Shown: positions 1,918-59,594 of the stretch, in pieces | Numbering within the stretch: the stretch's first letter is position 1 | How the letters are laid out: the number at the start of each line of letters is the position of its first letter | DNA from: Ardenticatenaceae bacterium | Lineage (GTDB): Bacteria > Chloroflexota > Anaerolineae > Promineifilales > Promineifilaceae | Length of the DNA stretch: 64,000 bases | Assembly (NCBI GenBank): GCA_030065875.1 | Contig: JASJCR010000001.1 | Span: 1-64,000 of the forward strand | Direction: 5' to 3' | The notes under the pieces: generated by a model | Told to the model about the DNA's origin: nothing | The model's input: only the letters and a program-made list of their open reading frames with translations | Database searches by the model: none | Program-made: the position numbers and the translations under genes

Positions 1918-1992
1918 GTAAGGTTTAAGCAACAGGCAGATTTGCTAAAGGGAATTTACCCCGGAGCCTTCATTTTCCATTATACTGTGGGT

Positions 1993-4890
1993 ATGTCTGA
2001 GACTTTGCTGCGCACGAAGTTCCATATTCCTTCGCCACGGCTGACCCATGTCTCTCGACCCCATCTCATTTTGCATCTCAACCAAGGTTTGCAGCTTGGT
2101 CACGGCCTCTTCCTCATTTCCGCTCCGGCCGGTTTTGGCAAGACAACGCTTGTCGCTGAATGGGCGCAGGAATTGAAATTGACGATTGAAGATTTACGAG
2201 ATACGAAATACGGGAAACGAGAGACGAAAGACGAAATACGAAATACGAAATACGAGGTACGAGACAATAAAAAACTGCGGGGTAGGGCAAAGGATAGCCC
2301 AATTGTCAATCATCAATCCAAAATCGCCAATCATTTGGTCTGGTTGTCACTTGATGAAGGGGATAACGATCCTGCCCGCTTCCTTTCTTATTTTACGGCC
2401 GCTTTGAGCCGCGGTGAGGACAAAATCGGAAACGGGGCGCGTCGTATGCTGCAATCGCCGCAGCTGCCGGTGGCTGAAGATGTTTTGACCTCATTAATCA
2501 ACGATATCGCCCTCCTCTCTGAAAAAATTATTGTAGTTCTCGATGATTACCACGTTGTGGAATCTGAAGAGGTTCATCGTGCGCTTGCCTTTTTGCTCGA
2601 CCATCTACCCCCCCAACTGCATCTGGTTATCGTGACCAGGGAAGATCCGCAGCTGCCGATCGCTCGTTTTCGCGCCCGCGGAAAATTGACCGAGCTGCGC
2701 GGTCTTGATCTGCGATTTACGCTTTCTGAAATTGAGGAGTTTTTTAACCGGGCGATCGCATTGAATCTTTCGGAAGCCGAAATCGCCGTGCTTGAAACGC
2801 GTACAGAAGGATGGATAGCCGGTTTGCAGCTGGCCGCAATAGCCATTCAGGGCAGCCGGGACAGCAGCACGCTTATCGGCTCATTTACCGGGAGTCATCG
2901 TTTTGTGCTGGATTACCTGGTCGAAGAGGTTTTAGACCAGCAGCCCAAGGAAATTCAAACCTTTTTGCTCAAAACGGCCGTTCTAGGGCGGATGACCGGT
3001 CAATTGTGTGATGCCCTTACCGGTTGGGACAATGGGGAAGAGATCCTTGAGCGTCTGGATCACGACAACCTTTTTGTCGTCCCTCTCGATGAAGAGCGAC
3101 ACTGGTATCGCTATCACCACCTCTTTTCTGATCTGCTGCGTTTGCGGCTAAGTCAAACGCGTGCCGATGATTTGTCTAAGCTCCATTTGCGGGCCAGCGA
3201 GTGGTTTGAACAACTTGGGCACGTTGATGAAGCGATTGACCATGCTTTGCGGGCGGAGAATTTTGAACGGGCCGCAGCGTTGCTGGAGCGGCGGGCGGAC
3301 GTGCTGTGGCAGCGTGGTGAACATGTTAAATTGCGCAAATGGCTGGCGAAGCTGCCTGATGAGCTAGTTTGTTCCCGGCCGGAACTATGCATCTTTGACG
3401 CCTGGTATTTATTTGCTAGTGGTCAGCATGATGTGGCTGAAGAGACGCTTAAAGCGGCCGAGCAAGCCTTTCAATCAATCACCGACTGTGGGACACTGAC
3501 GGCGCTGGTCGAGGTTGATCCAACAACCCATGCAGAGGAGGCACGGTTATGCGGCCGGGTGGCCGCGATTCGAGCCTTTATGGATTCATATCGCGGGGAC
3601 GTAGCGGGAATTATCCGCCACGCGAACCGGGCTCTTGTTTGCCTACCGGAAGGGGATCGGACCTGGCGCAGCATTACGGAGATCGTTTCCGGTGATGCGT
3701 ATGGGTTTAAGGGCGATCTGAGCGCCGCTTACCGATCACGTATGGATGCCTACCAGAACTGCCTGGCCGCGGGTGACACATACTACGCTATCCTGGCCGG
3801 TATTAAGGTGGCCATTACGCTGCGATCTCAGGGACACCTTCAGCAGACAATCGAGACTTGTCAGGATGTCATTCGGTTGGCTGACGAGTGTGGACTATCG
3901 TCTACAAGCGTCACCGGGCTGGCGTACGCTCTGAAAGGGGAAGTGCTGGCCGAATTGAACGAGATGGATGAGGCGTTCATTCATGCCCGCAAGGGGATCA
4001 GATTGGTCACACGCGGAATCGACCTCACCCTAAGCGGCTGGGGCTATCTCTGCATGATGAGGATCTATTTTTCATCGAAGGACGCGGCCGGCATCAGAGC
4101 GATCAGGCAAAAAATGGAGAATCTCGAGCAGGAATCGACCTTGCCTCCTTGGGTAAAAAGCCAAGTTGAGGCGTGGCAGGTAAGGGTCTGGCTGGCGCAA
4201 GGCGATCTACGGCCGGCCGTTGCCTGGGCAGCGGAGCGCGGTCTGGGAGCCGAGGATCAAAAGACGATTTTGCCCCCTGCTATTGATTTTATCGCCCTGT
4301 TTGATTACCTGGTGTTGGCCCGCATCCGGATTGAGCAAAAGCGGCTGGATGAAGCCTCTGATCTGCTCAGCCGGCTTCTGGAAACGGCCGAAGCCGGCGG
4401 CCGTATGGCCCGCACGATCGAAATTCTGCTGCTGCAGGCGCTTGTGTTACACGCTGGTGGTGACCTTACCAGAGCGATATCCCGATTGAAGAAGGCCGTG
4501 GCCCTCGCTGAACCGGAAGGGTTTGTGCGCATTTTTTTGGATGAAGGCGAACCGGTGGCTCGCCTGCTTCGGAAAATCGTACGCCGTGGGATGGCGACAA
4601 ATTATGCCAAGCGTTTATTAAATGCATTTTCAACGGCCGAATCGGTGGCTGAGCCCGAAAGAAACGTTGCTGATCCGTCTGCTCTGATTGAGCCGCTCAG
4701 TGAACGGGAACTGGAAGTACTCCATCACATCGCTCAGGGATTGACCAATCAGGAAATTGCCGATCGGCTGTACCTATCGCTCAATACGATTAAGGTTCAC
4801 ACCCGCAACATCTACAGCAAGCTCGATGCGCACAATCGCATGCAGGCGGTCGCCACGGCCCGCTCTTTGGGAATACTTCTTCGCGCCTGA
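1993..4890 (+). CDS. MalT-like LuxR-family STAND transcriptional regulator
   Basis: A large ATP-dependent activator (about 965 aa from the ATG at 1993; a TTG at 1942 is an alternative start). An N-terminal P-loop ATPase with Walker A APAGFGKTT near residue 45 is followed by WLSLDEGDNDPARF, Walker B IIVVLDDYH, a TPR-like helical region, and a C-terminal LuxR HTH (LSERELEVLHHIAQGLTNQE ... NTIKVHTRNIYSKL). Members sense an unknown inducer, oligomerise and activate transcription. Residues 61-114, between Walker A and the WLSLDEG motif, form a Lys/Arg/Glu-rich insertion encoded by tandem repeats that is not typical of the family. The gene sits just upstream of a hydrolase cluster and may be its activator (inference). 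Confidence 0.92.
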   Translation: MSETLLRTKFHIPSPRLTHVSRPHLILHLNQGLQLGHGLFLISAPAGFGKTTLVAEWAQELKLTIEDLRDTKYGKRETKDEIRNTKYEVRDNKKLRGRAKDSPIVNHQSKIANHLVWLSLDEGDNDPARFLSYFTAALSRGEDKIGNGARRMLQSPQLPVAEDVLTSLINDIALLSEKIIVVLDDYHVVESEEVHRALAFLLDHLPPQLHLVIVTREDPQLPIARFRARGKLTELRGLDLRFTLSEIEEFFNRAIALNLSEAEIAVLETRTEGWIAGLQLAAIAIQGSRDSSTLIGSFTGSHRFVLDYLVEEVLDQQPKEIQTFLLKTAVLGRMTGQLCDALTGWDNGEEILERLDHDNLFVVPLDEERHWYRYHHLFSDLLRLRLSQTRADDLSKLHLRASEWFEQLGHVDEAIDHALRAENFERAAALLERRADVLWQRGEHVKLRKWLAKLPDELVCSRPELCIFDAWYLFASGQHDVAEETLKAAEQAFQSITDCGTLTALVEVDPTTHAEEARLCGRVAAIRAFMDSYRGDVAGIIRHANRALVCLPEGDRTWRSITEIVSGDAYGFKGDLSAAYRSRMDAYQNCLAAGDTYYAILAGIKVAITLRSQGHLQQTIETCQDVIRLADECGLSSTSVTGLAYALKGEVLAELNEMDEAFIHARKGIRLVTRGIDLTLSGWGYLCMMRIYFSSKDAAGIRAIRQKMENLEQESTLPPWVKSQVEAWQVRVWLAQGDLRPAVAWAAERGLGAEDQKTILPPAIDFIALFDYLVLARIRIEQKRLDEASDLLSRLLETAEAGGRMARTIEILLLQALVLHAGGDLTRAISRLKKAVALAEPEGFVRIFLDEGEPVARLLRKIVRRGMATNYAKRLLNAFSTAESVAEPERNVADPSALIEPLSERELEVLHHIAQGLTNQEIADRLYLSLNTIKVHTRNIYSKLDAHNRMQAVATARSLGILLRA
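2179..2334 (+). repeat. In-frame tandem-repeat insertion inside the MalT-like gene
   Basis: The stretch consists of short ACGAAATACG-like units (about 2191-2265) followed by a CAATTGTCAATCATCAATCC-type stretch. It keeps the reading frame and adds about 50 residues to the ATPase domain. The opening words (ATTGACGAT ... TTTACGA.ATACGAAATACG) recur outside genes at 33072-33097, so this is a dispersed repeat family that has landed in a coding region. It has few stops in several frames, which would help such an insertion be tolerated. Confidence 0.7.
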
Positions 4891-35406: not shown

Positions 35407-37866
35407 GTGACGATTCTCCAGCAAAACATCAGGGAGCTCAATAAAAAGACCGCAGATACGCTGCGCGAAATAGCGACTGATCCGGATATTCGCCGCTTAT
35501 CAAAATTGAGCCTGCCTCAAATCGATGGGGTGATTGATGATATTGTGCGGCTTCTGCCGGGTAATGATTTGCCGACTTTTATCCTGCGCGGTTTAACCAA
35601 GCTGCCCGGCCGGCAGGTGACCCTCGGCCGCATGCAAAAAGATACGGTTTCTTTGCTAGAAGCGTGGGAGCACATCAAGCAGATCGCCGTGTTTGGAACG
35701 GTTTTTGCCGGACCGGCGGCCGTCATCCTGCTGTATCAAAGGCTGCTCCAGCTGGCGGGAAAAACGGCCGAGCAGGCGTTTCCGGATGGGTATTGGCAAT
35801 TTTATGTGGATTTTGCCCTGCGCGAGGATTCTGCCCGTCACACCCATGAGACCGGTGGATTTGATCAGCTGCTCAGTAAACATGAGATTCATCTCGATCA
35901 GGTTGATCGCGTCACCGCCTGGGTTATGGCGGCGATTGAAATCCTTTTTGATTATCCGATGATTTTACGCAACGAGTGGCGCGAGCGAATTTATCTGCGC
36001 GAGCTTCGTCAGCTGGTCTCTCCAGGTCACAAATTGTACGAGCGGGTGCAGTTTGCCTCTAAATCGTGGTCGAAGAATCGCCCTTACCGGCGCGGGCCGG
36101 ATGTGCGACCTGGCGAATCTTACCCTTTTTATCGCCAGCGAAAGTTTGATGACTTCATCGCCGTTTATCTGGCGCAGTTGACCTACGCTGAACGGATGGC
36201 GTGGGTAGAGGTGATCCAGAAATTGAAGGAAGAAGATCTTCCCGCGTTTCAAGATCAGATGTCGATATTGGCCTATTTGGAGGCCGGCCCGTATGGGGAT
36301 CAGCGAATTCCCTTGAAATTAACAGATACTCACATCGGGATCATTTACAATGGCCATTATTATTTGATCCCGGCTGTGCGGCCAAATACGGCCGAGCCGC
36401 CGGATGTTACCGTTGTGCGCAGTCAGGTATTTGCCATCATCAATGAGCTTAGCCAATCATCGCCCCCTTCATCAACCTTGAAGCCTGTTGCGCGCTGCCC
36501 ACGTGCGTATCTAAAAGGGATGTTGAAAGAAGTTGACCGGGATACATTCGAACAGCTGAATCAGCTGAAGCGGATTCCCATTTTGATCAATATCGATAAC
36601 CACCCCTCCTCTTCTCCGCTGGCCCGAATCCGGCAGGCAGAACGGGGTATTGGCTCACATCCGGTTACCGTTTTTGATGCCGCCAATTCGTTTGTATTTG
36701 ATTTATCCCACATTTTTTTTGACGGGACCTGGGGTGCCGCTTTTTCAGAAATGATGACCAATACCGCCACCGCCTGGGCAGTATACCTGCATACGCTGCC
36801 TCAAATTCACCCGCAGGTTTCCCAACCACAGGTATTGCATTTTGACTTTTCGTCTCGTGAAAAGGATTTGTTTGCTCAAATTCCGGCCGTCGTTCAGGAA
36901 ACCAATGCGGAAACTGAAGGGGTTCATTTACGAAATTTGCTGGCCTTGCGACGGCTTTTTAAGCTGCGCAACGATTTAATCCGTTTAACAGTCAACGATA
37001 TTTTGGTGCTATATCGTGGGATTCACGCCTTGACCTACCAACCGGCCGCTAATTTGGTTGAAAAATTGCACGCTTTATCCCATGAACCGGCCGCCAGGGA
37101 GGCCGCCTTGCTAACCCTGGCTGAAATTCAGGCGGAATATCCGGAAAACCCAACGATGTTGATCCCCGTTGACGCCAGCGAGGAAAATCCGCGAGATCGA
37201 ATTTACCCGCTCTGTTTTCAGGTACCTGTCCGGGAGCTGCGGCTTATTTCTCTCCATCAAGAGGTCATTGAAGCACTGGATGCTTATAAAAACAGCACGA
37301 GCGATCGCGGAGAACTCTACCAACGATTTGATGATTTGCAGCGTCAATATCTGGGTATCCTGGCCGGTTTGGGCGTGGTTTTTATTACGGCGAAAAATGC
37401 CGCTGCCAGAGGGGATACCGTCAGCGTTAACACCTTAAAACTTCTGGCACACTTGCCTAAATCGGTGCAGCAGCTGCTCGATCAAATTCCAAATCGGGTT
37501 GACATGATCAACGAAATGATAAAGGGACAGGAGGTTTTTTCAAATATCGGGGTTGTCTCTTCATCAAGCAGTTTGGGGCGATTCCTCTCAGCTAAAGATG
37601 ACAACATCAACAAGCGGATGGCCTGGGGCATTTTAACCGATGCGCATCTGACCATGCGGATTACCTTGAGGGATTTCCGGCCGCACGTTCAGGCGCTGTA
37701 TGAAATTGGAGAAGGCGACCTGGCGGAAGCCCTAACCGTTGATTATTTAGAAACTTACACCAGCGGATTAAACCGCTACGTCAATGATTTGCGAAGAATT
37801 ACGATGACCAGTCGGGAAACCCGGTTGTCATCGGAGATAGGATTGTTGGATGTCCACCCTACATAA
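35407..37866 (+). CDS. Large uncharacterised protein coupled to a Ser/Thr kinase; possible acyltransferase-like fold
   Basis: An 819-aa protein from a GTG start. It has no signal peptide and is mostly helical. I do not recognise the family. Two features recall the CoA-dependent acyltransferase superfamily (CAT/condensation/WS-DGAT): an HxxxDG motif, FDLSHIFFDGTWG (His435, Asp439), and an ND motif, RLTVNDILVLYRG (Asn530-Asp531), about 90 residues later, like TVND in DGAT enzymes. Another repeated theme is LRRLFKLRNDLIR. Its last 17 bp overlap the start of the kinase gene, so the two are translated together. Functional link inferred. Confidence 0.7.
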   Translation: MTILQQNIRELNKKTADTLREIATDPDIRRLSKLSLPQIDGVIDDIVRLLPGNDLPTFILRGLTKLPGRQVTLGRMQKDTVSLLEAWEHIKQIAVFGTVFAGPAAVILLYQRLLQLAGKTAEQAFPDGYWQFYVDFALREDSARHTHETGGFDQLLSKHEIHLDQVDRVTAWVMAAIEILFDYPMILRNEWRERIYLRELRQLVSPGHKLYERVQFASKSWSKNRPYRRGPDVRPGESYPFYRQRKFDDFIAVYLAQLTYAERMAWVEVIQKLKEEDLPAFQDQMSILAYLEAGPYGDQRIPLKLTDTHIGIIYNGHYYLIPAVRPNTAEPPDVTVVRSQVFAIINELSQSSPPSSTLKPVARCPRAYLKGMLKEVDRDTFEQLNQLKRIPILINIDNHPSSSPLARIRQAERGIGSHPVTVFDAANSFVFDLSHIFFDGTWGAAFSEMMTNTATAWAVYLHTLPQIHPQVSQPQVLHFDFSSREKDLFAQIPAVVQETNAETEGVHLRNLLALRRLFKLRNDLIRLTVNDILVLYRGIHALTYQPAANLVEKLHALSHEPAAREAALLTLAEIQAEYPENPTMLIPVDASEENPRDRIYPLCFQVPVRELRLISLHQEVIEALDAYKNSTSDRGELYQRFDDLQRQYLGILAGLGVVFITAKNAAARGDTVSVNTLKLLAHLPKSVQQLLDQIPNRVDMINEMIKGQEVFSNIGVVSSSSSLGRFLSAKDDNINKRMAWGILTDAHLTMRITLRDFRPHVQALYEIGEGDLAEALTVDYLETYTSGLNRYVNDLRRITMTSRETRLSSEIGLLDVHPT

Positions 37867-39673
37867 CGAAGATCCTTTAATTGGCCAATGCTTGGCGAAT
37901 TACCGTCTGGAGCGGGTGATCGGCCGCGGTGGTATGGCGACCGTGTACTATGGCACGGACATCAAGCTCAACCGGCCGGTGGCTGTGAAGGTCATCGACG
38001 CCCGCTATCGCAACAATCCGGCCTATGCTGAGCGTTTTATTCGCGAGTCGCAGATTGTGGCGACGTGGCGTCATCAAAACATCCTGCAAATTTACTATGC
38101 CGATGACCAGGATGATTTGTATTATTTCGCCATGGAGTATGTTGACGGCCTCGATTTGCGACAGCTGGTTGACATGTACAATCAGGACAACACGCTCATG
38201 CCGCATGAAGATGTCTTGCGAATCGGTTATGCGGTGGCGGATGCGCTCGATTATGCTCATACCCACGGGGTCATCCATCGCGACGTCAAACCATCTAACG
38301 TCATGGTTGCTTATACGGGTCAGGTGTTATTGACCGATTTTGGATTGGCGATGCAGGTCACCGAAGGGTCAATTGGAGAAGTTTTTGGCACCCCCCACTA
38401 TATGGCCCCGGAACAGGCTCGACGCTCGGCCGATGCGGTTCCCCGATCCGACATTTATTCGATGGGGGTGATTTTATTTGAGTTGGTGACCGGCATGGTG
38501 CCCTTTAATGACGAATCGCCAACCAGCGTGGCGCTCATGCACCTGACGGAATCTCCCCCGCTCCCTTCAGAGTTTAACCCCAAGCTGCCTCGCGGCGTTG
38601 ATGATGTCATTCTTCAGGCACTGCAAAAAGAACCTCAAGAGCGTTATGCGACCTGCCGCCAGTTGGTTGAGGCGCTGCACGAAAGCTTGATGGGAGAAGC
38701 GGCCGATCCCAATCTGCTGCCGCCTTTTCCGGCTATGATTGAACGATCGCGGGTCGTCAACGGCCGGGATCGCGAATTAACGATGAACTACCTGACCGTT
38801 GCCGAGCGGTTGGCGCTTCATCAGCAGCTGCGGGTGGATGATCTGACTACCCCCTATCCAGATCCCGATATCGATCCGGTTTCCTCTCCATCAATTCCTG
38901 AAGAACGGCCGGAACCGTCATCTGGCCGCCTCACGCGCACCCAGCGAAGCTGGCTGATTGGCGGTGTGGCTCTGATTGGCATGATCTTAGTCATCGGATT
39001 TGGGGGCCGGGCGTTATGGGGGAATCCGGCAGTAGAAGTGGAACCTACCCCCCCATCAGTGGCTTTGGCGGTTGATCAACCGGACGATACCCCCACTCCA
39101 CCCAATCCAACCGCGACCCTGCCGCAGCCGCCGATTTCAACAGCGGAGCCAACCGCTACCCCCCGCCTACTGGTGGTTGACAATCCAACCGTCACGGCCA
39201 CAGTTGAGCCATCTTCAACCCCTCCCATCACTCCGGCATCGATCGGTCCGGCGCCAACCCAGACGCCCAGCGTGATTATCGAACCGGACTTATTGCTTAT
39301 CTACAATAATCCCATGGCTTTTTATATCGTGAACCAGACTGAGCGGGCGATTGATCTTTCCCCTTTGTCTTTCATCGCCGTAAACGAAGAGGGTCAGATG
39401 GTTGAATATGTTTTTCAGGTGGCAGACTGGACCAATACTCGTTTGGAGTCTGATAAATGCAGCGGTCTGGAAGTTGTTGAAGCCCGTCGTGACTTGAGGC
39501 CGCCGCCATGTTCAGGGTTTAACTGGGTGGACCACCCGGGCCTTGATTCAACTCGGATTTTCTGGCAATCTCGGCCGGCGGAAGGCGTCTTTTCTTTTCG
39601 CGTCATGTGGGCGGGTCAGCCTATCCAATCGTGCGTTACCTTGTCCGGTACCTGTGCCGTAGCCCTTCCTTAA
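37850..39673 (+). CDS. Transmembrane Ser/Thr protein kinase with C-terminal extracytoplasmic domain
   Basis: A 607-aa kinase. The N-terminal catalytic domain (about 15-280) has the glycine loop VIGRGGMATVYYG, VAVKVID, HRDVKPSNV, DFGLAM and a GTPHYMAPEQA activation segment. A single membrane helix lies near 367-389. A Pro/Thr-rich linker (about 395-480) follows, then an extracytoplasmic domain of about 125 residues with four cysteines, likely the sensor. The ATG overlaps the end of the 819-aa protein gene. Its substrate could be that protein (inference). Confidence 0.9.
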   Translation: MSTLHNEDPLIGQCLANYRLERVIGRGGMATVYYGTDIKLNRPVAVKVIDARYRNNPAYAERFIRESQIVATWRHQNILQIYYADDQDDLYYFAMEYVDGLDLRQLVDMYNQDNTLMPHEDVLRIGYAVADALDYAHTHGVIHRDVKPSNVMVAYTGQVLLTDFGLAMQVTEGSIGEVFGTPHYMAPEQARRSADAVPRSDIYSMGVILFELVTGMVPFNDESPTSVALMHLTESPPLPSEFNPKLPRGVDDVILQALQKEPQERYATCRQLVEALHESLMGEAADPNLLPPFPAMIERSRVVNGRDRELTMNYLTVAERLALHQQLRVDDLTTPYPDPDIDPVSSPSIPEERPEPSSGRLTRTQRSWLIGGVALIGMILVIGFGGRALWGNPAVEVEPTPPSVALAVDQPDDTPTPPNPTATLPQPPISTAEPTATPRLLVVDNPTVTATVEPSSTPPITPASIGPAPTQTPSVIIEPDLLLIYNNPMAFYIVNQTERAIDLSPLSFIAVNEEGQMVEYVFQVADWTNTRLESDKCSGLEVVEARRDLRPPPCSGFNWVDHPGLDSTRIFWQSRPAEGVFSFRVMWAGQPIQSCVTLSGTCAVALP

Positions 39674-46801: not shown

Positions 46802-48862
46802 TCATTGCCCGCCATCAACCATCACCGGCTGCCAGACCGGCATTCGTTCTTCAACCGTTGAATTGGTGACTCGTTCCGGCTCGCTGCTGTCTATCTGAAG
46901 GGCGAAGATGTCGCGGTTTGAAGAATCACTGACACGAGCGTGATACAAAATCCACAAGCCGTCTGGGGACCAGCTGGGAAAAAACGCGTCCTGGGCGGCT
47001 GGGGTAATCGGCCGCTGTCCGCTGCCATCCGCATTCATCAGATAAATTCGCGACCGCTCATCCCCGTCGGTGACCTGATACAGCAGTTGGCTGCCGTCCG
47101 GAGACCACAGCGGAAAAACACTTTCATCCAGACCAAAGGTCAGCTGCTCTTGAAATGAACCATCGCGATTCATCAAAAAAATTTGCCGGCGATTGTCGAT
47201 TCGTCGATGAAAGGCGATTCGCTGCCCATCTGGTGACCAGGCAGGTCCAAAATCATCAACCGCATTGTCGGTGAGCTGCCGCACATCGGTCCCATCGACG
47301 TCAACGATGAAAATTTCAAAATCGCTGTCTCGATTCGAATGAAAAGCGATAAAGTTGCCGTTTGGTGACCACCTGGGGAAAGCATCATCAGCCGATGATT
47401 GGGTGAGGTTGCGCTGTCCGCCCCCGCGATTGTCCATCAGATATACTTCCCAATTGCCGTCCTGAAAAGTGTGATAGGCAATAAAGCGGCCGTCCGGCGA
47501 CCACACCGGGCCAAAATCGTTTGCGGGATCGGTGGTAAGCTGAAATTCACGATCCTGATCAAGCGGCCGCACAAAAATGTCGTAATTCCCGTTACGGTTG
47601 GAAGCGTAGCCGATAAATCCACTGCCCCCACCCCAGGAATCTGACAGGAGTGAAGGACCCGCTGGTGTCGGTGTTTCGGTGGGCTGTGGAACGGGTGTGG
47701 GCAGCACCGTTTCCTGAGGGGTTGGCTGGATGGCGTTTTCAGACTCACCTTCGGGATCCGGCACGATTTGGGTCACCACCACCACGACCTGGGTGGGTTC
47801 GTCCGTTGGGGATGGGGCAAATAGGGTGTCGCGCATCAACCACAACCCGCCACTGGCCAAAATAAGCACGGCAACAATAGTCAAAATCGGAAACAGCCAG
47901 GCCGGTCGGCCGCTGCCCGTTGGCGTTTGGAAATCACTTTCCGGGTCTGAAAACGGGATGGGGTGAGGCAAATCCGCCACGGCCGGATCTACAATCGTTT
48001 CCATTTGCGGTTGAATATCAGTTATGAGCGGATCGGTCGCGATTGGCGACGCATCTTGCCCCTCCGCCGCTATTTTAAACAGATTATACAGCTCGCCCGC
48101 TGATGAAGGGCGTTGGTCCGGGTCTTTGGCCATCGCTGCATCGATTAACGCCTGGAATTGGGCGGGTATATTTCCCAGATAGGCGGTTAAGCGCGGGATC
48201 GGTTCATAAACGTGCTGATACAAAACCGAAGCGGTTGTTTCTCCGCGGAAAGGTTGCTGGCCGGTTAACATTTCAAACAAAATCACGCCGAGCTGATATA
48301 CATCGGTGCGGGCGTCTAATGGTTTGCCCTGCGCCTGTTCAGGGGCCATGTAGTGGGCAGTTCCAATAATTGATGAGGTTTGCGTTCCCTCGGTCATGCG
48401 GGCGATACCAAAATCGGCCAGGTAAGCCATTTCATCATCATCAAAAAGAATGTTAGCCGGTTTGAGGTCGCGATGGATCACCTGATGGTTGTGGGCGCGA
48501 TCAAGGGCGGCACAAAGCCGCCGCATCATCTGATCGATAAATGATGGGTCCAGCGGCTGGCCGGTCATGCGATCTTGAAGCGTGCCCCCTTTCATCAGGC
48601 GCATGACGATAAAAGCGGTCTCATCTAAGCGGCCGAAATCATACACCGGCACAATGGCATTGGCTTCCAGCTGGGCGATGGTGCGGGCTTCATTGGTGAA
48701 ACGCCTTTCTGAGTCTGAATCGGTTAGCAAATGGCCGTGAAGCACTTTTATGGCCACCTCACGCTGAAAATGGGGGTCAAACGCCCGGTAAACGCGAGAC
48801 ATCCCTCCTTCTCCAAGCAGTTCGAGTATGTTGTAGCGATCGATGGTTTCTGGCAAATTCAT
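46802..48862 (-). CDS. Ser/Thr protein kinase with C-terminal TolB-like beta-propeller
   Basis: About 686 aa from the ATG at 48862; an upstream in-frame start lies inside the hairpin repeat. The kinase domain (about 8-270) has LLGEGGMSRVYRA, VAIKVLHG, HRDLKPANIL and DFGIARM. A membrane helix is near 322-345 (LFPILTIVAVLILASGGLWL), then a Pro/Thr linker and six PD40/TolB-like blades (PVWSPDGRFIAYHTFQDGNW, PRWSPNGNFIAFHSNRDSDF and others). It ends 2 bp from the convergent carboxypeptidase. The propeller is probably the extracellular sensor. The hairpin repeat at 48884-49016 forms its 5' region. Confidence 0.9.
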   Translation of the reverse strand: MNLPETIDRYNILELLGEGGMSRVYRAFDPHFQREVAIKVLHGHLLTDSDSERRFTNEARTIAQLEANAIVPVYDFGRLDETAFIVMRLMKGGTLQDRMTGQPLDPSFIDQMMRRLCAALDRAHNHQVIHRDLKPANILFDDDEMAYLADFGIARMTEGTQTSSIIGTAHYMAPEQAQGKPLDARTDVYQLGVILFEMLTGQQPFRGETTASVLYQHVYEPIPRLTAYLGNIPAQFQALIDAAMAKDPDQRPSSAGELYNLFKIAAEGQDASPIATDPLITDIQPQMETIVDPAVADLPHPIPFSDPESDFQTPTGSGRPAWLFPILTIVAVLILASGGLWLMRDTLFAPSPTDEPTQVVVVVTQIVPDPEGESENAIQPTPQETVLPTPVPQPTETPTPAGPSLLSDSWGGGSGFIGYASNRNGNYDIFVRPLDQDREFQLTTDPANDFGPVWSPDGRFIAYHTFQDGNWEVYLMDNRGGGQRNLTQSSADDAFPRWSPNGNFIAFHSNRDSDFEIFIVDVDGTDVRQLTDNAVDDFGPAWSPDGQRIAFHRRIDNRRQIFLMNRDGSFQEQLTFGLDESVFPLWSPDGSQLLYQVTDGDERSRIYLMNADGSGQRPITPAAQDAFFPSWSPDGLWILYHARVSDSSNRDIFALQIDSSEPERVTNSTVEERMPVWQPVMVDGGQ

Positions 48863-48883
48863 GGTTTTGGAAAAAGGGGTTAA

Positions 48884-49016
48884 ATACACTGTTACAAAAA
48901 TATTCTTAACTACTTTTTTTAGAGACGCCATTTTGCCGCAGCCGAATGAATTCGGCCGCTACGGAAACCGAAACGCGATAAATCGCGTAAAAACTATCCG
49001 GTTTCGGTCTCCATGG
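48884..49016 (-). repeat. Hairpin-rich dispersed repeat, copy 2 (upstream of propeller kinase)
   Basis: Nearly the same as 1-145 in reverse complement, except for a few bases lost from the first inner hairpin (ACCGGATAGTTTTTACGCG in place of the full GATAAATC hairpin) and a T-to-C change in the GAATTCATTC loop. The outer stem and tail are kept. It ends 22 bp before the kinase start codon and reads toward it. Confidence 0.8.
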
Positions 49017-49268: not shown

Positions 49269-51140
49269 CTATTGGGCGGCGGCATAATCAATCACTTCAC
49301 GGATACCGCGGCTGTGGATATCCCAATTGTAATTGGAATAGCTTCGAAGCAAAATGGCAATGGCCGGTATCCCCTGCTGATCCAGCCAGTTGGTGCCATC
49401 ACCATTGACGTCATAGCTGGCGACATTTTCAAAATCAGAGAGGGGGAAGCGGCTGCCGCTGGCGTACGATTGCGCTAGATCAATCGAAACCTGGCTGACT
49501 TCCTGACAACCGCCGGGAGAAACCAGGCCGGAAGTGGCTCGGGCTTCCCAAAAAACAACCCCTACCGGATTTACCTGCCGTATAAATTCAGCTAAAACCT
49601 GGGTTTCCGGTTCGGAAAACGGCCGCTCTCCGCCGCTGACCGGCTGCTGAGCCCAGCGGGCGTCAGCCACCCAGTCGCAATCCCAATTTCGATTGAGATC
49701 GACCCCGTTGCCATTGAGGCGGCCGGGCAGTTCTCCCGGGTCGATGGGGCTGTCCGGATTTGCCACCGGAATGACATAAACAGATACATTTGCGGGCAGA
49801 TCGGCCGGTTGGTTTTTGAGAATTTCTATAAGCTGCTGAGCGATGCCCACCGTTGCCGGGGCAAAACCGGCATGCAGACCGCCGATAAAAATGATGGGAT
49901 TTTCCCCCTGCCCAAATTGATAGACTTCAAGCGGATTACCAGCTGCAGATCGGCCGATTTCACGGAGGGTGAAAGAGGGTGGTTCCGGGGTAGCGGTTGG
50001 CGGCTGTAGGGTTTCAGTCGGCGGGGGAAGCGAAGGAGGAGGCGGTTCGCTTTCCACCGTTTCCGGCGGTGAAGTTGCGATTTGAGTCACCACAACCACC
50101 ACGACCTCCGGTGTTTCCGAAACGTCAACCGCAACAGGATTTGTCAGGATTCCCCCATCAAAAAAGGAAAAGGCCAGCCAACCGAGTATCACCAGGGCGG
50201 TCAGACCGAGCCCTCCCCAAACCCATCGTGAGAAATTACCTTTGACCTCGTTGACGGGTTGAGAAAGCGGTATGGAACCATGTGGCTTGCTGATCGGATT
50301 GACTTTTGGAATCTCCGGTTGTGATGGCGTGGACGCAATGGGTTCCGGCTGGCGGCCGAAGCGGCGGTATAGTGCTCCGGCCGAGGGGGGCCGATCAGCC
50401 GGCTGTTTGGCCATCGCGCTTTGGATGACATTTTCCAGATAAGTTGGAAGTCCCTGGGCGTGGGTGCTCAGCGGCGGCACCGGTTCAGCCACGTGTTTCA
50501 TGACCAATTCGGTGATGCTGCTCCCTTCAAACGGCCGGTGGCCGGTCAGCATTTCGTATAGAATTACCCCCATTTGATATACATCGGTTCTTGGGTCTAA
50601 ATCTTCCCCCCGGGCTTGTTCCGGAGCCATATAGCTGGGGGTACCGATCACTGATCGGGTTTGAGTGCCTTCGATGACCCGGGCGATTCCAAAGTCAGCC
50701 AGATAGGGAACCCCCTGATCATCAAACATGATATTGCCGGGTTTTAAATCACGATGAACAATTTTATTGGCGTGAGCTTTGTCAAGGGCGGCACACATGC
50801 GGCCGAGGATCGTATCGATGTCATCCCAAGACAATCGACCTTGAGCCAGTCGGTCTTCAAGCGTGCCCCCCGTCATAAGGCGCATGACCATGTAGGGGTG
50901 ACCGTCATGGATGCCAAAATCATAAACCGGAACGATGGCAAAATGCTCGAGGTTGGCAATAACGCGCGCCTCATTTTCAAAGCGCTGCTCCAGGATCGGT
51001 GTCGTTAAACCAGACCCATCGATGAGTTTAACCGCCACCTCTCGTTGAAAGGCGGGATCCTTGGCCAGGTATACTTTTGCCATCCCGCCGCGACCGATTT
51101 GTTTTAGCAGTTGATACCGACCAATCTGAGTGATCTTCAT
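49269..51140 (-). CDS. Ser/Thr protein kinase fused to a degenerate M14 carboxypeptidase-like domain
   Basis: About 623 aa from the ATG at 51140. The kinase (about 8-268) has QIGRGGMAKVYLA, VAVKLID, HRDLKPGNIM, DFGIARV and GTPSYMAPEQA. A membrane helix lies near 313-335, then a Pro/Thr linker and an M14-like domain (about 400-622) homologous to the secreted enzyme at 45778: VDLNRNWDCDW and QPVSGGERPFSEPE match VDLNRNWDCNW and QPISGGDVPFSETE. Catalytic positions are changed: only the first His (H423) and NR remain; HGGYE reads HAGFA, the His of IFLHSAF is Ala, and the Glu of FSVELDN is Leu. It is probably a peptide-sensing pseudoenzyme. Confidence 0.9.
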   Translation of the reverse strand: MKITQIGRYQLLKQIGRGGMAKVYLAKDPAFQREVAVKLIDGSGLTTPILEQRFENEARVIANLEHFAIVPVYDFGIHDGHPYMVMRLMTGGTLEDRLAQGRLSWDDIDTILGRMCAALDKAHANKIVHRDLKPGNIMFDDQGVPYLADFGIARVIEGTQTRSVIGTPSYMAPEQARGEDLDPRTDVYQMGVILYEMLTGHRPFEGSSITELVMKHVAEPVPPLSTHAQGLPTYLENVIQSAMAKQPADRPPSAGALYRRFGRQPEPIASTPSQPEIPKVNPISKPHGSIPLSQPVNEVKGNFSRWVWGGLGLTALVILGWLAFSFFDGGILTNPVAVDVSETPEVVVVVVTQIATSPPETVESEPPPPSLPPPTETLQPPTATPEPPSFTLREIGRSAAGNPLEVYQFGQGENPIIFIGGLHAGFAPATVGIAQQLIEILKNQPADLPANVSVYVIPVANPDSPIDPGELPGRLNGNGVDLNRNWDCDWVADARWAQQPVSGGERPFSEPETQVLAEFIRQVNPVGVVFWEARATSGLVSPGGCQEVSQVSIDLAQSYASGSRFPLSDFENVASYDVNGDGTNWLDQQGIPAIAILLRSYSNYNWDIHSRGIREVIDYAAAQ

Positions 51141-51319
51141 TAAAATCAGATCCTTTTTTTGCTCCGCTTTTCCCTCTTCCTGATGTGTGTGTCCCTTATT
51201 CACCTTTCTTTAATCTTACAAGGTGAAAAATTATTAACTTTTGGGATAATATAGCAACTTCAACGCTTTGACCATCGAAAAACCGTGAAACAAATCGCCT
51301 GCAAAAAAATGGAGACCAC

Positions 51320-52174
51320 ATGAAGCCTGCTGTTTGTATTGCAACCGTTGGAGGACAACCTCAATTAATCACCTATTATCTGGATGGGCTCATTGAGAAA
51401 AGGGAACGAATAGAAAAGTTAATTTTGCTTCGTTTATCCCCACGCAACGCCCGCCTGCAGCAGGCGCATTCGAGGTTAATGGTCGAATTAAGGAGCGGCC
51501 GGTATCCGGGACTCAATGCTGAGTGGTTTACGTTAGCCGTTAACGGGTTTCCCCTTGAAGATATTCGCTCAACGGCCGAGGCGGATGCCGCCAGCTCAGC
51601 GATACACCAATTAATTCACGGGTTAAAGCTGGAGGGAAATCGCCTTCACGTTGGGGTGACCGGCGGGCGACGCATGTTGGGGATGGTGACGATGTCGACG
51701 GCGATGCTCAACTTTGATCGTAACGATCGCCTGTGGCACATGCACACGCCAGACGAGTTTAGAAAAGAAGCGCGTGGTGGAAACATCATGCACATCCCGG
51801 ACGGCATTGATTTTAAATTAATCGAAGTACCGATTCTACCTTTGGGCCACTATTTTGCGCAGCTGCACGGCTTTGGGGGGGTGACCCAACAGCGTTTTGT
51901 CCTCAATCAACAGGAAAAAGAGCGGGCGCAGCGGGTCGTCGACCAATTGACTCGCCGTCAAAAAGAAGTGCTGGCTTTGCTGGCTCGTGGCCAATCGCCT
52001 ACTGAAGCGGCCAAAACCCTTAAGGTAACGGTGGCTACGATCAATACCCACAAAACCGTTATCTTTGCTTGCTGTCGAAACGAGTGGGGGTTTCCGACTG
52101 ATGAGCGCCTGACCTACTATTTCTTGCAGAAAAAATTTGAGATGCACTTTCGAGATGATCAGTCTTTTTCTTAA
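51320..52174 (+). CDS. CARF-like (NE0113/ring-nuclease-related) domain fused to a LuxR-type HTH
   Basis: The 284-aa protein begins VCIATVGGQPQLITYYLDGL, then EDIRSTAEADAASSAIHQLI, and VGVTGGRRMLGMVTMSTAML with TGGRRM at residues 114-119. These parts and their order resemble CRISPR-associated NE0113/CARF ring-nuclease-like proteins (GGSPQ, DIR, GGRKxM). From residue 210 a LuxR-like HTH follows (LTRRQKEVLALLARGQSPTE, VTVATINTHKTVIFACC). No CRISPR array or cas gene lies in the window. It is divergent from the pseudo-carboxypeptidase kinase. Likely a nucleotide-responsive transcription factor; function inferred. Confidence 0.75.
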   Translation: MKPAVCIATVGGQPQLITYYLDGLIEKRERIEKLILLRLSPRNARLQQAHSRLMVELRSGRYPGLNAEWFTLAVNGFPLEDIRSTAEADAASSAIHQLIHGLKLEGNRLHVGVTGGRRMLGMVTMSTAMLNFDRNDRLWHMHTPDEFRKEARGGNIMHIPDGIDFKLIEVPILPLGHYFAQLHGFGGVTQQRFVLNQQEKERAQRVVDQLTRRQKEVLALLARGQSPTEAAKTLKVTVATINTHKTVIFACCRNEWGFPTDERLTYYFLQKKFEMHFRDDQSFS

Positions 52175-57238: not shown

Positions 57239-59440
57239 TCAGCGCCTGAATCCCAATAAGAGAGGGAAGAAACCAAAGGCCCCTTGAGAAGCTTCCCTTA
57301 AATCAATATTGACAAGACCAGAAAAAATCATCAACCATAAGAGCGCAACTGTCAATAGCAAAATTAGCATAAAAAGCAGCCATGTGGGAATTCGTGGAGG
57401 GATAATGACAATCCCCTCGGTCTTGCGGGCGATATCTTTGTTGTCAGTTTGCAAAATAAACGACAGTTTTTGTTTACGGCCGATCCATTGTCGTTTTAGA
57501 GAGCGTACGCGCACCGGGATAAGCGTATTTTGCCCCGGTTCGAGGGCCAAAACCTGGTCCGGAAGATCAAAAAGAAGGTTTTCCCCCTGATCGGGAGCCG
57601 AGATCGTTAATCTAGTGACCGCATTTCCCTGATTCTTTAGGGTGATTTCGCCACATTTGCCGTGAAAAATTTCTTTTGGTGAAAGGTCAATTTCAAATGC
57701 GGGAAAGGCGCGCAAGGTTAATTTGCCAGGGATTTCAAAATGTTGTTCTTCATCTGTTTCAACAGCGTCATTTTGGATCGGTTTTGAGTGAATGAGAACT
57801 TTAAAATGATAATCACCGGCAACGGCCGTGACGTGGCGAGGTGGATGGAGGGCGAAGGTCATGATGCCTTCCGACTGGCTGCCAAGTGAAAGTTGTTCCT
57901 CGACCGGTGTGACCCAATTTGCCGGGAGGTCAAGCAGTTCATATGAAAATCGACGTTGATGAGACGTTTGATTAAAGATATGGAGTTGAACGGGTACCCT
58001 TTGCCCCGGTTCTACAACGACTTCCTGCGGCCGAAGCGAAAATGAGTGATTGATCGAGGTGTCATCTAAAGATTTTGTTGGAGAGAGCGGCAGAGGGGAT
58101 CGGGGCCGCTCCGCCTCAGTTAACCGCAAATCACCCGTGCTTGTCATAGGCTGCTGATACGGCCGTGACCGGGTTATGCCGCTGGCTGATTGTGTTGCTG
58201 TTTGCCAAAAAATTGAAATGTTCCCGATGCGCACGATAGGTCCCACCCGCCAATATTCCGCTTTGTGAGGAGTTATTTTTGTGCCGGCTAAATAGGTTCC
58301 ATTGGTGCTTTCTAAATCGGTCAAGGTCCATCCATTTTCCGTGCGCTCGAGTTGAGCATGTTCGCGGGAGATACCTGATCCCGCCAGGATGATGTCGCAG
58401 GCGCGGCTGCGGCCGATCTTGTAGCTCTTTTCAGTCAGTTGGAAATGGTAAGACGACCCGTCTTTTTCGCGAATAACCAGGGTGTTTTGCGGCTCGGGGT
58501 GAGCCTTGGACCGGGATCCCCCTACGGCGGATTGATCGTGTAGAGAAGCGGCTGACCGGCTGTCGCTGATTGTTAACTGTTGGGCAGCTAATCGCACAGC
58601 CTGCGCCATTTCTTTTCCTTTTTGAAATCGCTCGGCCGGCTGTTTGGCCAGCGCCTTAAAAATTATTTGGGTCACCGCAGGAGGGATCCCGGATTGATAC
58701 TGGACTGGATCAGGAACGGGGGCTTCGATGTGCATTTTGACGGCCGAAGCGGGGGTATGAATGGCAAACGGCAGCCGGCCGGTCGCCAGCTGGAATAGCA
58801 CCGCCCCCAGGGCATAGAGATCAGCACGGCCGTCTATCTCTTGCCCTAAACATTGCTCTGGAGACATGTAAGGAAGCGTGCCGATCAAAGCCGCGTTGTC
58901 ACCGTCAAGCCCTTCGACGGCCACTCGGGCAAGCCCAAAATCTGAGACCAGGGCCCGAATTAACGGATCACCGGGTCGATCTGCTTTTTCAAGCGGCCGT
59001 AGAAGCACGTTGTCCGGTTTTATATCGCGGTGAACAATGCCCAGGCTGTGAGCGTGATCCAGGGCATCGGCTACCTGAGCCACAATGGCCAAACTTTCCC
59101 AAAGGTTTATCAGCTTACCGGTAATTGAGATGGATCGCATCGTCGCCCCTAAACTTCCTCCGGAAACAAGACGCATGACCATATAAAGATATTGCTCGTA
59201 GGCACCAAAGTGATAAATTGGGACGATATTGGGATGATCCAGGCGAGCGGCCGCCTGTGCTTCCTGGAGGAATTGCTGCCGAAATGAGCGCTGCCGGGCC
59301 AAATGGCTGTGCATAACTTTGATAGCCACCTGACGGTTCAAGTTAATGTCTAATCCCTGATAGACAACACCCATCCCCCCTTCACCAAGCAGGCCCGTCA
59401 AACGATAGTGATCTATTTGCTGACCGATCAATTTGTCCAT
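57239..59440 (-). CDS. Ser/Thr protein kinase with internal FHA domain and C-terminal membrane helix
   Basis: About 733 aa from the ATG at 59440. The kinase (about 10-275) has LLGEGGMGVVYQG, VAIKVMHS, HRDIKPDNVL and DFGLARV. An FHA domain (about 330-420: YKIGRSRACDIILAGSGISR, LTDLESTNGTYL) binds phosphothreonine. Two Ig-like segments follow (SLRPQEVVVEPGQRVPVQ, LRAFPAFEIDLSP), then a single helix near 688-708 close to the C-terminus. Kinase plus FHA is therefore tail-anchored on the cytoplasmic side, unlike the other kinases in the window. A 16-bp palindrome lies upstream. Confidence 0.88.
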   Translation of the reverse strand: MDKLIGQQIDHYRLTGLLGEGGMGVVYQGLDINLNRQVAIKVMHSHLARQRSFRQQFLQEAQAAARLDHPNIVPIYHFGAYEQYLYMVMRLVSGGSLGATMRSISITGKLINLWESLAIVAQVADALDHAHSLGIVHRDIKPDNVLLRPLEKADRPGDPLIRALVSDFGLARVAVEGLDGDNAALIGTLPYMSPEQCLGQEIDGRADLYALGAVLFQLATGRLPFAIHTPASAVKMHIEAPVPDPVQYQSGIPPAVTQIIFKALAKQPAERFQKGKEMAQAVRLAAQQLTISDSRSAASLHDQSAVGGSRSKAHPEPQNTLVIREKDGSSYHFQLTEKSYKIGRSRACDIILAGSGISREHAQLERTENGWTLTDLESTNGTYLAGTKITPHKAEYWRVGPIVRIGNISIFWQTATQSASGITRSRPYQQPMTSTGDLRLTEAERPRSPLPLSPTKSLDDTSINHSFSLRPQEVVVEPGQRVPVQLHIFNQTSHQRRFSYELLDLPANWVTPVEEQLSLGSQSEGIMTFALHPPRHVTAVAGDYHFKVLIHSKPIQNDAVETDEEQHFEIPGKLTLRAFPAFEIDLSPKEIFHGKCGEITLKNQGNAVTRLTISAPDQGENLLFDLPDQVLALEPGQNTLIPVRVRSLKRQWIGRKQKLSFILQTDNKDIARKTEGIVIIPPRIPTWLLFMLILLLTVALLWLMIFSGLVNIDLREASQGAFGFFPLLLGFRR

Positions 59441-59594
59441 ATTTGACACCCACAAATCAGATACCGCAACTTTAATCTGCTCTTTGCGGTAGATTGTGGT
59501 TCATCATGAGATTTTAACACAAATGTATTGGCTTCCGGCTTAGTAAAAAGATACTGTTTTTTTCTTACAATTCGGTTTTCTCTTTATCTCAGAT

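Follow-up and report, generated by a model that had tools for sequence, protein, structure and literature searches.

A Putative Nucleotide-Sensing CARF–LuxR Regulator of Type III CRISPR Loci that Has Likely Outlived its CRISPR System in One Lineage

Introduction

Proteins of the NE0113 type have been predicted to regulate transcription directly (Makarova 2014, in the part available; PMC4012209). Csa3 is named as the sole experimentally characterized non-nuclease CARF effector in the accessible portion of a 2022 review (PMC9704534), and a GTS motif I is given as a signature of cOA-degrading CARF proteins in the portion available of PMC10018336. The literature searched yielded no description of a fusion between LuxR and CARF domains, which the CARF classification of Makarova 2020 may already list.

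The gene described here encodes such a fusion and lies in the window, i.e., the whole 64-kb stretch of DNA that was analyzed. Its product is probably a cA4-type nucleotide-sensing transcription factor that normally belongs to a type III CRISPR locus and has likely outlived it in this lineage.

Domain Organization of the CARF–LuxR Protein

The gene and its parts are as follows.

51320..52174, + strand: CARF–LuxR gene, 284 amino acids, an intact ORF with an ATG start and a TAA stop
51320..51895, + strand: CARF domain (residues 1–192), NE0113/Crn1-like fold
51941..52066, + strand: LuxR-type HTH (residues 208–249), from PF00196, the family profile against the PDB and a model of residues 193–284
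52067..52171, + strand: conserved extension at the C-terminus (C252, W256, Y266, F273), for which an additional helix is predicted

Residues 13–183 match Pfam Cas_NE0113 (PF09623; 3e-24, 86.4 bits against a cut-off of 23) and residues 208–249 match GerE/LuxR (PF00196; 1.1e-7, 31.8 bits against a cut-off of 23.5), the latter match covering 42 of 57 positions and ending at position 42. PADLOC profile PDLC01855 ("CARF3--CARF") spans residues 3–278 (3.1e-85). The combination of an NE0113-type CARF domain and a LuxR-like HTH, proposed in a first-pass annotation of this DNA, is borne out by these three profiles, but the fusion is not wholly new, as had been supposed, because the PADLOC profile already covers the whole protein. 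By NCBIfam cas_NE0113 (TIGR02584) the protein scores 31.4 bits, below the cut-off of 80.65; winged-HTH families such as PF13551 stay below their Pfam cut-offs, and no AAA+ domain is matched in Pfam. Precomputed annotations of 60 listed proteins (P0001 being the window's own) give PF09623 in all 60 and PF00196 as well in 55.

Searched against the PDB, the family profile finds LiaR (7.2e-10). The top Foldseek rows for the HTH model are LuxR/NarL-type regulators (best E 8.1e-3), and no PDB match is found at E <= 0.001. Structural comparison of the CARF domain, a check suggested in the first-pass annotation, reveals likeness to cA4-binding CARF domains including that of Csa3, and the best neighbors include the Crn1 enzymes Sso2081 and Sis0455. 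By both profile cut-off and fold, the protein belongs to the PF09623/CARF superfamily and carries a PF00196/LuxR-type HTH.

Type III CRISPR Setting of the Relatives

A scan of genome contigs for 87 relatives left 80 loci, whose titles give Chloroflexota or groups within it; the exception (L008) is titled "bacterium." A homologue of AAA-Csx3, a member of the Crn3/Csx3 ring-nuclease family, adjoins the CARF–LuxR gene in 77 of the 80 (reference neighbor: C3a67, 4.6e-135; Cas_csx3, 1.5e-17). It is divergent in 75 loci and co-directional in two (L003, L034), and is not adjoining in three (L026, whose contig starts 73 bases upstream, L037 and L080). Over the 75 divergent loci, the two genes are separated, from aligned start to aligned start, by a median of ~60 bases, with some overlap, so that the control region common to both is very compact. 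A Cas10-like gene is present in 48 of the 80 loci, a count that includes cluster c19, assigned by its similarity to c9 and by context. In 45 loci this gene lies downstream on the same strand (within 400 bases in 28 of them), in two it lies upstream and in one on the opposite strand. This count is preferred to that of cas cluster matches (54 of 80), which rests partly on RAMP-like clusters not named by a profile. Cmr3, Cmr4, Cmr6, Cas6, Csx15 and a CARF4-PDDEXK protein were identified in single example loci. By their Cas10 and AAA-Csx3 counts, the relatives are ancillary proteins of type III loci.

A genome-wide Cas10 check of 30 of the 80 loci, mainly ones without nearby cas matches, gave a match in 19 genomes. 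Four loci (L028, L045, L055, L062) have no cas cluster match in ~10 kb on either side, but have Cas10 elsewhere in the genome. In three of these (L045, L055, L062; Thermogemmatispora), the ~10-kb flanks bring together the CARF–LuxR gene, AAA-Csx3, a gene of the CARF4-PDDEXK cluster and a gene of the Csx15 cluster.

Among 396 genomes of the class, the CARF–LuxR family is found in 119 (E <= 1e-20), Csx3 in 77 and the Cas10 palm in 185 (167 above cut-off); because PF22335 also scores above its threshold in Escherichia coli, a control, part of the 185 may hold another protein, which inflates presence and not absence. For the co-occurrence table, 83 of these 119 genomes were used, those with weaker matches being omitted. 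The 65 genomes with a match at E <= 1e-90 include 61 with Csx3 (in 60 of them within 3 kb of the gene on one contig) and 55 with Cas10, and the window's genome (G000) is the only one without either. At E <= 1e-68 (82 genomes), five are without both: G000, G119, G238, G257 and G346. The CARF–LuxR-like genes of G119, G238 and G257 (family f5) score lower and possibly represent a further CRISPR-free branch. Fourteen stretches of viral contigs were matched, none of which is a relative.

The first-pass annotation had regarded a LuxR fusion on its own as a new regulator. That such fusions stand on their own as a class is not supported: in Chloroflexota, the relatives go tightly with AAA-Csx3 and in many cases with type III cas genes. 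The unusual point is that the genus of the window combines the regulator with no detectable CRISPR system.

Searches for CRISPR Genes in the Window's Genome and Genus

The window belongs to a metagenome-assembled genome (MAG) of 7.42 Mb in 198 contigs (94.66% complete), in which the CARF–LuxR gene sits on a 155-kb contig with ~51 kb of sequence on one side and ~103 kb on the other. The genome-wide search for type III cas genes envisaged in the first-pass annotation found no match to RAMP or Cas10 palm profiles in the whole assembly, nor to Cas1 or Csx3, and a simple 20-mer repeat scan of the 64 kb gave no array resembling CRISPR, in keeping with the earlier remark that no CRISPR locus lies nearby. 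Profiles of mCpol and SMODS, which cover part of the cyclases, likewise had no match in the assembly. Among 14 control genomes, RAMP was found in 4, Cas1 in 9, Cas10 palm in 5, Csx3 in 0, mCpol in 1 and SMODS in 3; the sensitivity of the Csx3 search is shown instead by the 77 class genomes, and the mCpol control is weak, with none above cut-off. By these searches, no type III system accompanies the window copy in the assembly. As the CRISPR gene families searched were not found in the assembly, the regulator has likely outlived its immune system.

Five genomes of the genus were compared. The CARF–LuxR gene occurs in G000, G346 and G450 and is missing in G272 and G449; G346 and G450 appear to be the genomes of loci L037 and L003, respectively. 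Both genus-mate MAGs that hold the gene are 82% complete, and the genomes of L003 and L037 have no match to Cas10 and no RAMPs, as against RAMPs in six of six comparison genomes. Csx3 has no match in G346, whereas L003 retains a co-directional AAA-Csx3. No flanking genes common to the three genus members were seen.

It is unlikely that a type III locus exists on an unbinned island or plasmid missing from the MAGs, with the window protein acting in trans as an ordinary CRISPR-linked regulator. The genomes are indeed incomplete (94.66, 82, and 82%), and Cas10 can be distant from the gene, as in the four loci named above; but four CRISPR families are absent even from the most complete assembly, the usual neighbor AAA-Csx3 is absent from a position well inside a contig, and the two genus-mates likewise have neither Cas10 nor RAMPs.

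A tree was built from 123 rows, namely the 60 listed proteins and 63 of the 80 loci, predicted ORFs without an alignment over 200 residues being excluded. The window protein, P0002, P0003, L003 and L037 form one clade (support 99/97), which is nested in a 17-row group (100/97) with L006, L009, L012, L013 and L053, all of which have Cas10 or RAMPs in their genomes or loci. The simplest reading, a likely one, is a single loss of the type III CRISPR system in the lineage followed by losses of AAA-Csx3, with the regulator retained; its basis is three MAGs, which makes it likely and not proven.

That the gene is a relic, functionless and decaying after a recent loss of the CRISPR locus, is distinctly unlikely. 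Of the highly conserved columns, the window protein matches 44 of 51 (86%), P0002 45, P0003 42, L003 46 of 51 and L037 39 of 46, so that, measured against the remaining 118 rows (median 96%, 10th percentile 90.3%), the five clade members are just below or below the 10th percentile. This shortfall fits decay, as do the replacement of R118 by Leu in L037, the absence of the gene from two of the five genus genomes and the unlike flanks of its three holders. Yet part of this shortfall is to be expected, as the leave-one-out comparison favors rows whose close kin stay in the consensus; key motif residues are otherwise kept in the clade, and the C-terminus of L037 is not assessable because of an N-run within its HTH. 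P0002 is 90% identical to the window protein. The identity of the window protein to its genus-mates is 41–43%, and at this distance its intact ORF and its kept D81, R117 and R118 indicate long retention.

At L003:116-5493, an NB-ARC/TPR protein of 882 amino acids is encoded upstream of CARF–LuxR and the co-directional AAA-Csx3. As that genome matches neither Cas10 nor RAMP profiles, the arrangement is possibly a CRISPR-free sense-and-erase module.

Ligand Site and Ring-Nuclease Motifs

The motifs VGGQP, DIRST and TGGRRM, noted in the first-pass annotation, are confirmed at residues 10–14, 81–85 and 114–119. Residue equivalences to Sso2081 were taken from a profile alignment.

51344..51364, + strand: motif I region T9-V-G-G-Q-P-Q15, with G11-G12-Q13 aligned with Sso2081 G9-T10-S11
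51560..51562, + strand: D81, aligned with Sso2081 Asp75
51662..51673, + strand: motif II G115-G116-R117-R118, with G116, R117 and R118 aligned with Sso2081 G104, R105 and K106

The Gly-Arg-Lys of Crn1 motif II and Asp75 align with G116-R117-R118 and D81 of the window protein, a partial agreement in which Lys is changed to Arg and the other residues are unchanged. Motif I departs from that of a Crn1-type ring nuclease, as GTS reads GGQ. Outside the window clade, GGQ is near-constant (G12 in 118 of 118 rows, Q13 in 114 of 118), the R118 column has Arg in all 118 rows, the R117 column Arg in 107 rows and Pro in 10, and the D81 column Asp in 89; D81 and R117 are present in all five clade members. 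Sso2081 Glu17 is without a counterpart in the family, the aligned residue being aromatic or aliphatic.

Judged from these residues, binding of cOA by the CARF domain is plausible, and efficient ring cleavage is less plausible than binding. Replacement of GTS by GGQ points to a sensor more than to an efficient ring nuclease, in which case Csx3 would take care of degradation. It is quite improbable that the protein is chiefly a Crn1/Csx14-type ring nuclease and, through its HTH, a cA4 eraser tethered to DNA, even though Sso2081 and Sis0455 are among its best structural neighbors and Csx14 is, in the accessible part of PMC12409355, a predicted ring nuclease that apparently falls in Crn1. Besides the near-constant GGQ, a ring nuclease of another family already adjoins the gene in nearly all loci, and the score for NCBIfam cas_csx14 (TIGR03642) is 34.7 bits, below the cut-off of 90.35.

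Divergent Neighbor and Candidate Operator

The region upstream of the gene contains the following features.

49269..51203, − strand: gene for a Ser/Thr kinase with an M14 carboxypeptidase domain (Pfam Pkinase 1.7e-49, Peptidase_M14 2.9e-15), candidate target
51196..51230, no strand: inverted repeat TTATTCACCTT-N13-AAGGTGAAAAA, candidate operator, a prediction chosen after the fact
51223..51250, + strand: promoter-like site towards the CARF gene (consensus scan), its first hexamer inside the right arm of the repeat
51246..51274, − strand: promoter-like site towards the kinase gene (consensus scan)

The divergent arrangement with a Ser/Thr kinase gene, noted at first pass, is thus correct. The true start of that gene is possibly at 51140, and the inverted repeat sits between this likely start and 51320. 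The consensus scan gives four promoter-like sites in 1.2 kb (1.2 ± 1.3 in shuffles), with those towards the kinase close to the repeat. The exact core of the repeat is present as a single copy genome-wide, and 26 of 100 shuffled versions of the window contain a copy within three mismatches. The layout of repeat and promoters agrees with a predicted local autoregulation. A regulon is not claimed from it, the repeat occurring with up to two mismatches at three places as against five for the reversed control.

A family-wide operator was sought in 68 of the 75 divergent intergenic regions, short and near-duplicate ones having been removed, and no common palindrome was found; the best dyad, GCCA-N6-TGGC, occurs in 5 of 68 regions (maximum 2–4 in 20 shuffles), and frequent words are largely coding-like. 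Conservation of the kinase pairing was also rejected: of 15 ORFs of L037 tested, the CARF gene is the sole match to the window, and in L003 the upstream gene is the one for the NB-ARC/TPR protein.

Four kinase-like ORFs lie within 22 kb (37850–39673, +; 46802–48931, −; 49269–51203, −; 57239–59455, −), two being confirmed by Pkinase (one with PD40 repeats, one with M14) and two judged from their first residues. The window also encodes, at 1942–4890 (+), a 982-residue MalT-like regulator with AAA/TPR_MalT and a C-terminal LuxR HTH.

A Model for CARF–LuxR Function

In the relatives, cA4 made by Cas10 would be bound by a CARF dimer via the counterparts of Sso2081 Asp75 and Arg105, after which the LuxR HTH would alter transcription at the compact divergent promoter, which serves the AAA-Csx3 ring nuclease on one side and the regulator's own gene and the cas10 operon on the other. 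The tight pairing of the two genes suggests a feedback loop: cA4 could directly control how much of its own eraser is made.

The window protein may still bind DNA, most likely at the inverted repeat, and may regulate itself and perhaps also the kinase–carboxypeptidase gene in response to a nucleotide. A fuller departure from CRISPR can be entertained tentatively, as a doubtful possibility: in this genus, the sensor would have been exapted for housekeeping regulation, responding to an oligonucleotide, cyclic or linear, whose source is not Cas10, mCpol or a SMODS cyclase, and acting on local genes, e.g., that for the Ser/Thr kinase. The CARF–LuxR and AAA-Csx3 pair of L003 would then serve as a CRISPR-free sense-and-erase module.

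If true, the preferred reading of a cA4-type sensor from type III loci would extend the CARF transcription factors by a bacterial one of the LuxR type, to which 65 of the 396 sampled class genomes have a strong match. The control of the eraser is testable with proteins of cultured relatives, e.g., of Chloroflexus or Ktedonobacter, and the CRISPR-free genus allows one to ask if a CARF domain is kept and repurposed once the immune system that makes its signal is gone.

Comparison with Known Systems

The closest counterparts are relatives under PADLOC PDLC01855 or the JGI name "CRISPR-associated protein Csx14," which share both domains over the full length with the window protein; in these relatives AAA-Csx3 is a neighbor at 77 of 80 loci and Cas10 is present at 48 of 80, whereas the window copy lacks both. 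The fusion is a catalogued CRISPR regulator family, undescribed in the literature searched, and the novelty moves to the CRISPR-free lineage.

Csa3 carries a winged HTH behind its CARF domain and is tied to type I-A systems, whereas the window family is bacterial, has a C-terminal extension behind an HTH that matches GerE/LuxR above cut-off, and is tied to type III systems and AAA-Csx3. The Crn1/Csx14 ring nucleases Sso2081 and Sis0455 have GTS at motif I, as against GGQ and an added HTH in the window protein. RtcR is, in the accessible portions of PMC9650030 and PMC7790460, a CARF-bearing transcription regulator outside CRISPR, as is proposed for the window protein; it works via an NtrC-type AAA+ domain and sigma-54 (PMC4012209, in the part available), and no AAA+ domain is matched in the window protein. 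Finally, the NarL/LuxR-type response regulators LiaR, VraR and NarL have the fold and sequence of the HTH in common with the window protein, but take their input through a receiver domain, where the window protein has a CARF domain.
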